Shown here: positions 9,394 through 15,052 of the stretch, piece by piece
Position numbering within the stretch: the stretch's first letter is position 1
Layout: each line of letters opens with the position of its first letter
From: Rhodopseudomonas palustris HaA2
GTDB taxonomy: Bacteria > Pseudomonadota > Alphaproteobacteria > Rhizobiales > Xanthobacteraceae
Reading direction: 5' to 3'
DNA length: 64,000 bases
Assembly: GCF_000013365.1 (NCBI RefSeq)
Contig: NC_007778.1
Coordinates: 5,132,501-5,196,500 of the forward strand
Notes under the pieces: generated by a model
Databases searched by the model: none
Told to the model about the DNA's origin: nothing
Seen by the model: the letters and a program-made list of their open reading frames with translations, nothing else
Program-made: the position numbers and the translations under genes

Positions 9394-9870
9394 GCGCGGC
9401 GCTTCGCGCGCGTCGGAGTTTCGTCACATTCGATCGCACGGCACGCCGGGATCCGGCGCAGCGTTCGTCTCAAAACCGACGACAGCCGTTCAGAGCCTGC
9501 CCCGCAGGGATTTCTCGAACTAGTCGCGCGACGCTGCAGCCGTCATATCTTCAGACGTCGTTAGTGAACTTGAATAGTTGTTCATGTTGGTGGACGTTTG
9601 CGTGTCTCATCAGCAACGCTCGGAGCCTGCGGCGGATAAATTCGCCGTTAAGCCAAAAAAAATCTTGCGGACCAGCACTGAAACACCTATCTCCGGTCTT
9701 GCCCAATTTCGCACGTGCCTGTGGTCGTGTGTCGATCGGTAGGTATCCGGACAAGAGGCCGGACAGCCGCCAAGGGATGAAGAAGCCGAGGGTCTCGAAG
9801 CGAATTTCGCCAGAGGCCAGCATCTCTCTCAAGAGATGCCGTTGAAGGTGACTTCTTCTCTTGCAACCGT
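9394..9870. other. Gene-free stretch with weak open frames
   Basis: About 480 bases of visibly lower GC than the flanks, with an A-run at 9655-9662. A minus-strand frame (9551-9910) reads plausibly in part (GEIRFETLGFFIPWRLSGLL), and a plus frame spans 9564-9845, but neither has a convincing ribosome site or recognised homology. It may be a decayed insertion or a short unknown gene. Confidence 0.4.
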
Positions 9871-9879
9871 GATCGGCAG

Positions 9880-10168
9880 CCGGAGGCGAACCGGCGCACC
9901 CCGCTCTCAACGGGGGACGCGACTTAAAGCAACGACGGATCGGGCTTTTTTGGTCTCTGCCGGCTTTCCATCAGCCGGCGCGAATACCGAAGAGGCTTGT
10001 CCTTCATTGCCAGGTGTGCGGGCGGGAGCATCTCCCCTCCAATCCACGGCAGCACTGTTTGTCTGAGCTTTTTGGCTCGTCGCGCCTCCATCGCGCGCCG
10101 ACGTCGAAGGCTCGGATCGGACGTCGTTTTTGAACGGTACCCATCGCTGGGCCGTTTGGGAGAGTGCT
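9880..10168 (+). ncRNA. Structured 5' leader of ornithine decarboxylase (speF-type candidate)
   Basis: The 290 bases before the decarboxylase carry a perfect hairpin, GCCGGC at 9959-9964 with GCCGGC at 9974-9979, and end in an intrinsic terminator at 10099-10131. The heptamer AACGACG at 9931-9937 is the complement of CGTCGTT at 10122-10128 in the terminator's 3' arm, so an alternative, terminator-breaking fold is possible. Alphaproteobacterial ornithine decarboxylase genes are known to carry the speF RNA motif; assignment to that motif is from position and gene, not from a covariance search. The 5' end is approximate. Confidence 0.5.
10099..10131 (+). terminator. Intrinsic terminator inside the decarboxylase leader (attenuator)
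   Basis: The arms CGACGTC (10099-10105) and GACGTCG (10120-10126) pair perfectly and are followed by five T (10127-10131). It lies only 37 bases before the start codon of the same-strand gene, so it can only serve to stop transcription before the gene, as in attenuation. Confidence 0.7.
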
Positions 10169-11311
10169 ATGACCGAACGTATCCAGGAATTCCTCCGCGC
10201 CCGCCGCAACGAAGGTCAGGATCTCGAGCCCTGCCTGGTCGTCGACCTCGACGTCGTGCGCGACAACTTCGCCAGCTTCGCCAAGGCGTTGCCGGACAGC
10301 CGCGTGTTCTACGCGGTGAAGGCCAACCCGGCGCCGGAAGTGCTGTCGCTGCTGGCCTCGCTCGGCTCGTGCTTCGACTGCGCCTCGGTGCAGGAGATCC
10401 AGATGGCGCTGGCCGCCGGCGCGACGCCGGACCGCATCTCGTTCGGCAACACCATCAAGAAGGAACGCGACATCGCGCGCGCCTTCGCGCTCGGCATTCG
10501 CCTGTTCTCGGTCGACTGCAGCGCCGAGGTGGAGAAGATCGCGCGTTCGGCGCCGGGTTCGAAGGTGTTCTGCCGCATCCTGTACGATTGCGCCGGCGCC
10601 GAGTGGCCGCTGTCGCGCAAGTTCGGCTGCGATCCGGAGATGGCGGTCGACGTGCTCGACGCCGCCAAGCGCCTCGGCCTGGAGCCCTATGGAATCTCGT
10701 TCCATGTCGGCTCGCAGCAGCGCAAGGTGAAGGCGTGGGACCGTGCGCTGGCGATGGCCGCGACCGTGTTCCGCGACTGCGCCGAGCGCGGCATCAACCT
10801 GTCGATGGTCAACATGGGTGGCGGCTTCCCGACCAAGTATCTGAAGGAAGTGCCGGCCGTGGTGCAGTACGGGCGTTCGATCTTCCGGGCGCTGCGCAAG
10901 CACTTCGGCAACCAGATCCCGGAGACCATCATCGAGCCGGGCCGCGGCATGGTCGGCAACGCCGGCATCATCGAGACCGAGGTCGTTCTGATCTCCAAGA
11001 AGAGCGACGAGGACGAGATGCGCTGGGTCTATCTCGACATCGGCAAGTTCGGCGGTCTCGCCGAGACGATGGACGAGTCGATCCGCTACGCGATCAAGTC
11101 GCGCCATGACGGCGCGGAGATGGCGCCCTGCGTGCTCGCCGGCCCGACCTGCGATTCGGCCGACGTGATGTACGAGAAGTTGCCGTACCCGCTGCCGGTG
11201 ACGCTCGAGATCGGCGACAAGCTGCTGATCGAAGGCACCGGCGCCTACACGTCGACCTACTCGGCGGTAGCCTTCAACGGCTTCCCGCCGCTGCGGACCT
11301 ACCACATCTGA
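10169..11311 (+). CDS. Ornithine/diaminopimelate-type decarboxylase (fold III PLP), ornithine decarboxylase
   Basis: This 380-residue enzyme converts ornithine to putrescine; some relatives also take lysine. The PLP lysine is K51 in FYAVKAN. Other landmarks are FHVGSQQ, NMGGGFPTKY, EPGRGMVGNAG and the C-terminal GPTCDSADVMYE with the catalytic cysteine. The start at 10169 (MTERIQEFL) has GGGAGAG upstream; an ATG at 10130 lies between the attenuator T-run and this site and is less likely. Homospermidine synthase lies 2.3 kb downstream, so putrescine probably feeds homospermidine. Regulation through the structured leader is likely. Confidence 0.92.
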   Translation: MTERIQEFLRARRNEGQDLEPCLVVDLDVVRDNFASFAKALPDSRVFYAVKANPAPEVLSLLASLGSCFDCASVQEIQMALAAGATPDRISFGNTIKKERDIARAFALGIRLFSVDCSAEVEKIARSAPGSKVFCRILYDCAGAEWPLSRKFGCDPEMAVDVLDAAKRLGLEPYGISFHVGSQQRKVKAWDRALAMAATVFRDCAERGINLSMVNMGGGFPTKYLKEVPAVVQYGRSIFRALRKHFGNQIPETIIEPGRGMVGNAGIIETEVVLISKKSDEDEMRWVYLDIGKFGGLAETMDESIRYAIKSRHDGAEMAPCVLAGPTCDSADVMYEKLPYPLPVTLEIGDKLLIEGTGAYTSTYSAVAFNGFPPLRTYHI

Positions 11312-11318
11312 GGTTGTT

Positions 11319-11449
11319 CACCTCCCCCGCTTGCGGGGGAGAGCCTGCCCTCGGGCTTGACCCGAGGGTCGGATCGCGAAGCGATCCGGGTGGGGGAAAG
11401 AGCGACTCGCCCTCACCCCGGCCCTCTCCCGCAGGCGGGAGAGGGAGCA
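11319..11449. repeat. Palindromic repeats, CTCTCCCGC/GCGGGAGAG family
   Basis: Two related palindromes frame this block: CTCCCCCGCTTGCGGGGGAG at the left and CCTCTCCCGCAGGCGGGAGAGG at the right, with GGATCGCGAAGCGATCCGGGTGGGG between. Near copies lie at 15.1, 34.3 and 39.3 kb. It may serve as a processing or termination structure after the decarboxylase. Confidence 0.85.
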
Positions 11450-11550
11450 GAAGAATCGAGGCCGGCTTGCCGGCCTCTCCCTGTCACATGCAATTTTGCT
11501 GACAACACGCTGCCGGTGTGCGCACCGGACCGCGTGGGGATCGACGTGCC

Positions 11551-13618: not shown

Positions 13619-15052
13619 ATGTCGTCCACTTCGAAGATTCACGCCAAGATCACCGGCCCCATCGTGATGATCGGCTTCGGCTCGATCGGCAAAGGCACCC
13701 TGCCGTTGATCGAGCGGCACTTCGAGTACGACAAGCACCGCTTCGTCATCATCGATCCGCACGAGGACGGCGAACTGGCGAAGAAGCACGGCGTGCGCTT
13801 CATCAGCGAGGGCGTCACCCGCGACAATTACCGCGAGCTCCTGATTCCGCTGCTCACCGAAGGCGGCGGCCAGGGCTTCTGCGTCAACCTGTCGGTCGAT
13901 ACCTGCTCGGTCGACATCATGACGATGTGCCAGGAGATCGGCGCGCTATATATCGACACCGTGATCGAGCCCTGGCTCGGCTTCTATTTCGACAAGAGCG
14001 CGGGCCCAGAGAAGCGCTCCAACTACGCGCTGCGCGAGACCCTGCTGGCCGCCAAGGCCAAGGCCGGCGAAGGCACCACCACCGCGGTCTCCACCTGCGG
14101 CGCCAACCCCGGCATGGTGTCGTGGTTCGTCAAGCAGGCGCTGATCGACATCGCCCGCGACACCGGCACCGAGATCAACGAACCGAAGAGCCGCGACGGC
14201 TGGGCGCAGCTCGCCCACAAGCTCGGTGTCAAGGGCATCCATATCGCCGAGCGCGACACCCAGCGCGCCAAGAATCCGAAGCCGATGAACGTGTTCGTCA
14301 ACACCTGGTCGGTCGAAGGCTTCGTCTCCGAGGGCTTGCAGCCGGCCGAACTCGGCTGGGGCACCCACGAGACCTGGATGCCGGACAACGGCCGCACCCA
14401 CAGCGAAGGCTGCGGCGCCGCGATCTACCTGCTGCAGCCCGGCGCCAACACCCGCGTCCGCACCTGGTGCCCGACGCCGGGCGCGCAATACGGCTTCCTG
14501 GTCACCCACAACGAGTCGATCTCGATCGCCGATTACTTCACGGTGCGCGACGGCCAGAACGTGGTGTACCGGCCGACCTGCCACTATGCCTATCACCCGG
14601 CCAACGACGCGGTGCTGTCGCTGCACGAAATGTTCGGCGCCACCGGTAAGATGCAGCCCAAATGGCACATCCTGGACGAGAACGAGATCGTCGACGGCAT
14701 CGACGAGCTCGGCGTGCTGGTCTACGGCCACGCCAAGAACGCCTATTGGTACGGCTCGCAGCTGTCGATCGAAGAGACCCGCGAGATCTGCCCGTATCAG
14801 AACGCCACCGGCATGCAGGTGTCGTCGGCGGTGCTGGCCGGCATGGTGTGGGCGCTGGAGAATCCGGAAGCCGGCATCGTCGAGGCCGACGAGATGGACT
14901 ACAAGCGCTGCCTCGAAGTGCAGATGCCGTATCTCGGCCCCGTCAAGGGCTACTACACCGACTGGACCCCGCTGACCGACCGCCCCGGCCTGTTCCCCGA
15001 GGACATCGACACCTCGGACCCGTGGCAGTTCCGCAACGTGCTGGTGCGCTGA
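13619..15052 (+). CDS. hss: Homospermidine synthase
   Basis: This 477-residue enzyme makes sym-homospermidine from two putrescine molecules with NAD+ as hydride carrier. The N-terminal Rossmann motif is MIGFGSIGKG (residues 17-26); conserved stretches include STCGANPGMVSWF, WGTHETWMP, HNESISIADYF and the acidic EADEMDYKRCLEVQMPYLGP. Length and sequence match the Blastochloris-type bacterial enzyme. Its substrate comes from the ornithine decarboxylase upstream. The start at 13619 (MSSTSKIHAKITGPIV) follows a GGAGTTCATCCCTG context. Confidence 0.95.
   Translation: MSSTSKIHAKITGPIVMIGFGSIGKGTLPLIERHFEYDKHRFVIIDPHEDGELAKKHGVRFISEGVTRDNYRELLIPLLTEGGGQGFCVNLSVDTCSVDIMTMCQEIGALYIDTVIEPWLGFYFDKSAGPEKRSNYALRETLLAAKAKAGEGTTTAVSTCGANPGMVSWFVKQALIDIARDTGTEINEPKSRDGWAQLAHKLGVKGIHIAERDTQRAKNPKPMNVFVNTWSVEGFVSEGLQPAELGWGTHETWMPDNGRTHSEGCGAAIYLLQPGANTRVRTWCPTPGAQYGFLVTHNESISIADYFTVRDGQNVVYRPTCHYAYHPANDAVLSLHEMFGATGKMQPKWHILDENEIVDGIDELGVLVYGHAKNAYWYGSQLSIEETREICPYQNATGMQVSSAVLAGMVWALENPEAGIVEADEMDYKRCLEVQMPYLGPVKGYYTDWTPLTDRPGLFPEDIDTSDPWQFRNVLVR

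Follow-up and report, generated by a model that had tools for sequence, protein, structure and literature searches.

Adjacent ar45 and speF motifs probably form one ornithine decarboxylase leader with two competing predicted folds

The speF leader of ornithine decarboxylase (odc) genes is described in the text of Corbino et al. (2005) as an extended element that begins near the putative start site and comprises a stem with a large insertion followed by a bulged stem-loop of about 80 nt, a structure model supported by in-line probing (PMC1273637). According to the same text, an Agrobacterium leader RNA spanning -400 to +3 was probed and bound none of ornithine, lysine, diaminopimelate, putrescine, cadaverine and spermidine; homospermidine was absent from these six metabolites (PMC1273637). 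ar45 is filed as a separate small RNA (sRNA) family, and its short transcript has been published for Sinorhizobium, as SmrC45, and for Bartonella (PMC2780559, PMC2873474, PMC7717549). SmrC45 is reported to start at one TAP-mapped 5′ end and, by assignment, to finish at the U run after a Rho-independent terminator (PMC2780559), to be a 148-nt species by sequencing (PMC2873474), sized in the mapping paper at 181 nt instead (PMC2780559), and to co-precipitate with Hfq (PMC2848018). The adjacency of ar45 and speF is noted in the Bartonella paper (PMC7717549). In enterobacteria, the ornithine decarboxylase gene speF is likewise preceded by a long regulatory leader, that of orf34 (PMC6386406).

Here we describe how ar45 and speF meet in a 64,000-nt stretch of the Rhodopseudomonas palustris HaA2 genome (the window, whose positions serve as coordinates throughout). 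A cmscan search of the whole window against Rfam returned two matches in total, ar45 (RF02347) at 9701-9949 (+) with 53.4 bits against a gathering threshold of 40 and, directly 3′ of it, speF (RF00518) at 9958-10116 (+) with 84.5 bits against 37. ar45 is assigned by its covariance model score, and speF by covariance score together with its position upstream of a COG0019-type decarboxylase gene whose substrate is predicted; the first-pass annotation of this DNA, which had linked such genes to the speF motif and suggested the Rfam search, was right on this point. The host genome holds one speF match, and the window's own ar45 was missed by the stricter filter of the whole-genome search, though it lies above gathering in the window scan.

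Like the ar45/SmrC45 sRNA, the 5′ element at this locus is the same domain, scores above gathering and ends at a U run; unlike the filing of ar45/SmrC45 as a separate sRNA family, our reading makes it the 5′ half of the leader that belongs to odc. The stem-loop of about 80 nt in the speF leader of Corbino et al., as far as their text describes it, fits our helix A plus hairpin P1. In contrast to the current Rfam speF model, helix A lies outside the model, since the match begins after the U run, and competition with a terminator-like fold is unreported in the speF section of the 2005 paper (PMC1273637). As in transcription-terminating riboswitches and attenuators, two exclusive folds are predicted that share one strand and a U run. 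Unlike in those systems, the competing strand follows the terminator-like fold and so cannot serve as an ordinary antiterminator, and no ligand is known. Our main reading, to which we give a probability of roughly 0.6, is that 9701-10168 is a single odc leader with two exclusive folds, in which nascent ar45 would release an sRNA at a run of six U (U6) and read-through RNA would refold. The range singled out by the first-pass annotation, 9880-10168, falls within this leader and leaves out its first ~180 nt.

The ar45-speF composite upstream of odc

The leader and its gene contain the following elements.

9664-9693 (+): box pair CTTGCG ... TATCTC, promoter-like and probably driving the entire leader
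9701-9951 (+): ar45 domain including U6 (9946-9951), a terminator-like fold in which 9701-9704 closes with 9942-9945
9958-10116 (+): speF element RF00518, from the cmscan match
9958-9980 (+): P1 hairpin, the tip of helix A, from the Rfam alignment and leader rows, with UCCA in most loops
10019-10041 (+): P3 hairpin, whose 3′ strand UCUCCC is able to pair with the odc Shine-Dalgarno (SD) region
10077-10103 (+): P4 hairpin with a CUCCA loop (a P4-like hairpin is present in 50 of 60 representative leaders); its 3′ arm overlaps the terminator stem supposed by the first-pass annotation
10169-11311 (+): odc, an open reading frame of 380 aa for a fold-type III (ornithine/DAP/arginine) decarboxylase, with the SD sequence GGGAG at 10158

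The odc product exceeds the cut-offs of Pfam Orn_Arg_deC_N and Orn_DAP_Arg_deC and of no NCBIfam equivalog, the top one being lysA with 186.7 of the 297.9 bits required. Its naming as an ornithine decarboxylase is a prediction that follows the published tree of genes behind the speF motif, as given in the text of that paper (PMC1273637). Just after odc, 11318-11460 holds GC-rich palindromic stretches such as CTCCCCCGCTTGCGGGGGAG, which resemble dispersed palindromic repeats. A gene with saccharopine dehydrogenase-type domains (Pfam), presumably homospermidine synthase-like, lies 2.3 kb 3′ of odc at 13619-15052, and in six loci (L190-L195) its homologue is flanked by two odc paralogues, each with its own ar45-speF leader. 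At all six loci with two odc paralogues, each copy is preceded by the speF block and by both ar45 motifs, 5′ and 3′; two of three further single-copy loci carry the 5′ motif, and the third, near a contig end, is without it.

For comparison, 178 loci were gathered, at 177 of which the frame is an odc homologue (L147 was dropped). Once duplicates had been taken out, the set comprised 138 distinct leaders that contain the ar45 5′ motif. Ten loci without this motif were left out (L115, L117, L118, L121, L125, L128, L145, L148, L149 and L154); the ar45 3′ arm is still present, by pattern, in eight of them. At the first six of these loci, which have no recognised ar45 5′ end, the odc alignment mostly begins beyond the usual ATG. 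Folding and covariation were analysed in 60 representatives of the 138 leaders, thinned at about 90% identity. The odc alignment begins after residue 1 in 16 of the 138 leaders (9 of the 60), which misplaces their 3′ end by roughly 3 nt, with a larger error in L010 and L171, and affects the tests of SD complementarity and accessibility.

In the window's order, 199 genomes were searched with strict filters and at most 14 candidates scored in each, so that absence says little and the counts are lower bounds: ar45 was found in at least 73 genomes and speF in at least 86. Among the 71 genomes listing both, the two share contig and strand in 70, and in 70 the first speF base comes 7-13 nt after the last ar45 base, exactly 9 in 54. 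In the exception, G052, a speF-like block also lies beside ar45 upstream of odc (L148), and in G089, for which no speF is listed, a speF block and odc could be recognised downstream by eye (L189). A pattern scan of named genomes for the Rhizobiaceae-type ar45 3′ arm gave 117 stretches. Among the 80 examined, the speF block is present in 79 and the ar45 5′ motif in 78, and odc starts no more than 700 nt away in 73. Across the class, ar45 was found in 11 of 289 genomes, 2 of them in the window's order; at the class-search loci (L179-L188) the composite precedes odc in 9 of 10 by eye, and at the tenth, where the match scores under the cut-off, the retrieved sequence contains no odc. ar45 is thus rare outside the window's order, and we count this against our main reading.

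A TTG...TA box pair occurs just 5′ of ar45 in 137 of the 138 leaders. The window's pair at 9664-9693, which we take to resemble an alphaproteobacterial promoter, was not flagged by a scan for the sigma-70 consensus. In the literature, sigma-70 sites were predicted for the smr genes in the mapping paper (PMC2780559), and SmrC45 appears with the sigma factor RpoH1/2 in a review table (PMC7143759). Because the promoter-like pair precedes ar45, ar45 and speF probably form one odc leader of about 470 nt. The alternative that ar45 is an independent gene for a trans-acting sRNA, that speF is a separate odc leader with a promoter of its own and that their adjacency is historical would accord with the reported binding of SmrC45 to Hfq (PMC2848018) and with a Bartonella northern analysis in which ar45 was separate and speF appeared only in a transcript of more than 700 bases, from which its authors infer independent expression (PMC7717549). 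A short terminated product would, however, yield the same northern pattern, and speF starts 7-13 nt after the end of ar45 in 70 of 71 genomes, which leaves no room for a promoter between them. Together with the position of the box pair before ar45 and the covariation of helix A, which links both parts, this makes two separate genes improbable.

Helices A and B as competitors of the closed ar45 fold

The 3′ arm of ar45 is predicted to take part in either of two structures, its own closed fold or helix A, and a second helix, B, would engage the ar45 5′ strand.

9710-9716 (+): CGCACGU, 5′ strand of helix B and part of the ar45 closing region, pairing with the segment after UUGCC
9929-9951 (+): switch strand GCAACGACGGAUCGGGCUUUUUU, which is either the ar45 3′ arm or the 5′ strand of helix A and holds the heptamer noted by the first-pass annotation
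9989-10010 (+): GAAGAGGCUUGUCCUUCAUUGC, 3′ strand of helix A, pairing with GCAACGACGGAUCGGGCUUUUUU at 9929-9951
10014-10020 (+): GUGUGCG, 3′ strand of helix B, from fold prediction and sequence pairing

Within helix A, GAAGAGGC pairs with GCUUUUUU at 9944-9951, GUCC (9999-10002) with GGAU (9937-9940), UC (10004-10005) with GA (9934-9935) and UUGC (10007-10010) with GCAA (9929-9932).

The aligned leaders indicate that helix A covaries. The covariation involves 9937-9939 and their partner, and the variable part falls into the matched classes GGUG/CACC, GUAG/CUAC, GUAA/UUAC and GGA/UCC. In a fixed register across the 60 representatives, N1 is GC in 25, UA in 27 and AU in 5, and N2 is AU in 44 and UA in 11; both are paired in 55 of 60, against a mean of 20.0 and a maximum of 33 in 10,000 permutations, and the position after N2 pairs in only 38. 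On the odc protein tree of the 60 representatives, N1N2 changes ten times, and nine of these changes share a branch with a change in the partner, where 1.1 would be expected; the partner strand shows four further changes alone. Relatedness is controlled in this tree-based test, whereas our other statistics ignore kinship.

Helix B has at least five contiguous pairs in 124 of the 138 leaders, as judged from the sequences. No covariation was apparent for it among the 138 leaders, the 14 broken ones displaying no compensating change; 11 of these 14 belong to the window's genus. At 10014-10021, GAGCGG replaces the usual GUGCGG in 11 leaders of the genus and in two of other genera, which breaks helix B with no change to compensate.

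Predicted folds change with the length of the RNA. When the RNA ends at U6, ar45 is closed via GGGC/GCCC in 59 of the 60 representatives; with the downstream segment present it is closed in none, helix A being predicted in all 60 and helix B in 58. In full leaders, helix A is predicted in 60 and helix B in 46. In a length scan of the window's leader, once the 3′ end reaches about 10000 closure is lost for good and the U run is paired; pairs of helix B arise at 10020. Closure also disappears transiently at three shorter lengths (9972, 9984 and 9988), at which helix A has yet to form. Forcing ar45 to stay closed in the window costs 14.1, 10.2 and 11.3 kcal/mol at 3′ ends of 10035, 10050 and 10168, respectively, and the second state is favoured in all 60 full leaders, by a mean of 10.1 and a minimum of 0.5 kcal/mol. 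Even under enforced closure, the U-run half of helix A is predicted to form in the window, so that exclusivity with closed ar45 is confined there to helix B and the GCAACGACGNNN half of helix A.

With shuffled tails, closure was kept in 293 of 1200 cases and disrupted in 907, and loss of closure alone is non-specific in these models. Since shuffled tails disrupt closure as well, the specific signal is the number of pairs formed with the ar45 arm, which is 18.4 for native downstream segments and 3.6 for shuffled ones, the native number being reached by 34 of 1800 shuffles. Prediction and covariation together thus describe two mutually exclusive folds that share a strand, and the leader likely switches between these modelled structures. 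A long stem-loop like helix A goes back to a proposal of 2005, and the ar45 sRNA has been described before; for their mutual exclusion, we found no paper describing such a competition in the accessible text of the open-access literature. The leader is conserved and underdescribed, two catalogued RNA motifs with a covariation-backed competition between them.

The hairpin before odc, the Shine-Dalgarno region and short frames

The first-pass annotation had placed the control point closer to the gene, in a hairpin whose 3′ arm would be contested by the strand at 9931.

10099-10131 (+): supposed terminator, present in the letters; the stem plus T run is not conserved

The letters are as it described: CGACGTC (10099-10105), GACGTCG (10120-10126), T5 (10127-10131) and the odc ATG at 10169, as well as the heptamer AACGACG (9931-9937) and its complement CGTCGTT (10122-10128). 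The stem is built on the palindrome GACGTC and has a 14-nt loop. The 138 leaders show no conserved intrinsic terminator just before odc: a perfect stem of at least 6 bp with an immediate T4, anywhere past the speF block, occurs in 4 of them, and at 10099-10131 in the window only. With relaxed criteria (a stem of at least 6 bp, a loop of up to 24 and T4 within 6 nt), scanning the sequence immediately before odc gave 5 of the 138 leaders against 0.45 in shuffles. The window's genus, with 16 leaders, contributes 3 of these 5, and its other 13 leaders have no T4 after a stem. Several leaders of the genus have another perfect stem near this place, for example GGCGCTG/CAGCGCC in L061, L092 and L093, mostly without a T run. 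From these alignments, a hairpin near 10099-10131 may be limited to part of the genus. Immediately 5′ of the SD sequence, 10133-10158 forms a further hairpin, AACGG..CCC..GGG.CCGUU, both stem sides of which vary among related leaders by eye.

The heptamer AACGACG is present in all 138 leaders and sits in the conserved 3′ end of ar45, and CGTCGTT lies downstream of it in 4, where mononucleotide shuffles give an expected 3.0. The exact complementarity between 9931 and the supposed terminator is therefore at chance level. Competition of 9931 for 10099-10131 has the exact 7-nt complement in the window and the stem with a nearby T4 in 3 of 16 genus leaders on its side, and with the chance-level complement, and with no other leader having the stem and immediate T run at this place, we consider it scarcely credible and rejected it. 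What holds of the earlier proposal of a two-fold switch is that the 9931 strand takes part in two competing predicted pairings; its predicted partner and the likely stop signal lie elsewhere, at 9989-10010 and U6.

A second, translational layer of control through pairing of the P3 strand with the SD region is possible. Complementarity between the P3 strand and the leader's own SD region averages 5.87 nt against 5.08 in permutations, none of 300 being as good when kinship is ignored, and the P3/SD pairing is predicted to be likelier in the second fold in 32 of 60 leaders and less likely in 6. We looked for a clear difference in SD accessibility between the folds and found none, the predicted values for the 60 full leaders being alike (0.196 versus 0.187). 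Pairing of the P4 loop with the SD sequence was rejected (own complementarity 4.08, permuted 4.17, with 255 of 300 permutations as good), and the P4 hairpin showed no covariation with the SD sequence.

Control of odc by a leader peptide, as with orf34/speFL of enterobacteria, is a further alternative. We take the orf34 leader of enterobacterial speF to be the same as speFL. In our leaders, GAAGAGGC, of which 109 of 138 have an exact copy, together with the UUGC behind it, present in 138 of 138, resembles a ribosome site with a UUG start. The frame from this invariant UUG is, however, not more open than the other two (a median of 38 codons against 44.5 and 53), and this candidate was rejected. 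The spacing from UUGCC to CCAA is spread over the three phases (21/19/18), the predicted peptides end at widely differing lengths, and when ATG positions in 60 leaders are sorted into 5-nt bins, no bin contains more than 13. Unlike orf34/speFL, this leader shows no conserved short reading frame among the sequences compared, and peptide-based control is very unlikely.

Proposed termination at U6 and the signal that the leader may sense

Control is most likely exerted through termination at U6. In the first step of our model, the nascent first ~250 nt, ar45, would close upon themselves, the last closing pairs (9701-9704 with 9942-9945) forming just before U6. Some RNA polymerases would stop at U6 and release the ar45 sRNA. 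Those reading through would make the speF segment, which would capture the ar45 3′ arm in helix A and the 5′ strand in helix B, and the leader would then be locked in the second fold, from which odc could be made. Because the helix A competitor lies downstream of the stop point, it cannot block termination at U6 in cis.

Whereas a classical attenuator has a strong GC stem and a U run, here U6 is present and the adjacent stem comprises only 4 bp followed by internal loops, which makes the closing stem a poor canonical terminator; a simple scan for consensus terminators did not find one at U6. The composition of the U run bears on the question. At three of its positions, which mostly face G in helix A, U is found in 131, 130 and 132 of the 138 leaders, and U-G pairs are formed in 131, 117 and 121. 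Keeping U where C would pair better with G would be expected if the U run doubles as a terminator tail. The published ends, 148-nt size and Hfq binding of SmrC45, and the separate ar45 band in Bartonella, agree with termination here, whereas the 181-nt size given in the mapping paper speaks against it.

The weak 4-bp stem beside the U run would also suit an RNase processing site, where the full leader would be cut into ar45 and odc mRNA and stability would be regulated. Such an arrangement would accommodate the published association of SmrC45 with Hfq and its smaller bands (PMC2848018) and the fact that its 3′ end was, according to the mapping paper, assigned rather than mapped (PMC2780559). 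It is at odds with the pairing of the U run in the predicted read-through fold and with the retention of U opposite G, and we regard processing as unlikely.

speF could instead be a direct riboswitch for ornithine or a polyamine that acts via this leader, and the nearly invariant blocks and the odc-like frame at 177 of 178 loci and at 9 of 10 class-search loci would fit this notion, as would a 2013 survey, the text of which has speF as a predicted element with ligand unknown (PMC3766115). Against it, the six pathway metabolites were unbound in the published in-line probing, as far as the text of that study reports (PMC1273637), and we rate direct sensing by speF as rather improbable. The probing result carries a qualifier. 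Judged from nine Agrobacterium-like loci, where the distance from the start of ar45 to the odc ATG is 399-407 nt, the probed RNA (-400 to +3) would cover nearly all of the leader and is therefore predicted to be in the second fold, which, on these models, leaves room for a ligand of nascent ar45. We rejected the idea that the probed RNA lacked the ar45 5′ strand, as the -400 construct would lose a few bases at most.

It is tempting to speculate that ar45 and speF make up one RNA device whose layout is reversed, that nascent ar45 acts as a terminator gated by a signal and yields an Hfq-binding sRNA on release, that speF is a strand-displacing lock marking the transcripts that escaped, and that the signal could be a homospermidine-type polyamine binding nascent ar45 only; we put this forward tentatively, as a possibility well short of an even chance. 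If true, a ligand limited to nascent ar45 would explain the null probing of a full leader trapped in the other fold. On our main reading, two families with separate catalogue entries, ar45 as an sRNA and speF as an orphan leader, are two folds of one polyamine-gene leader, a composite that many genomes of the window's order carry, as do a few from other orders. Helix A supplies base pairs with compensating changes for mutagenesis, and the question of what speF senses, now about 20 years old, would become a test of nascent ar45 rather than of the refolded leader.
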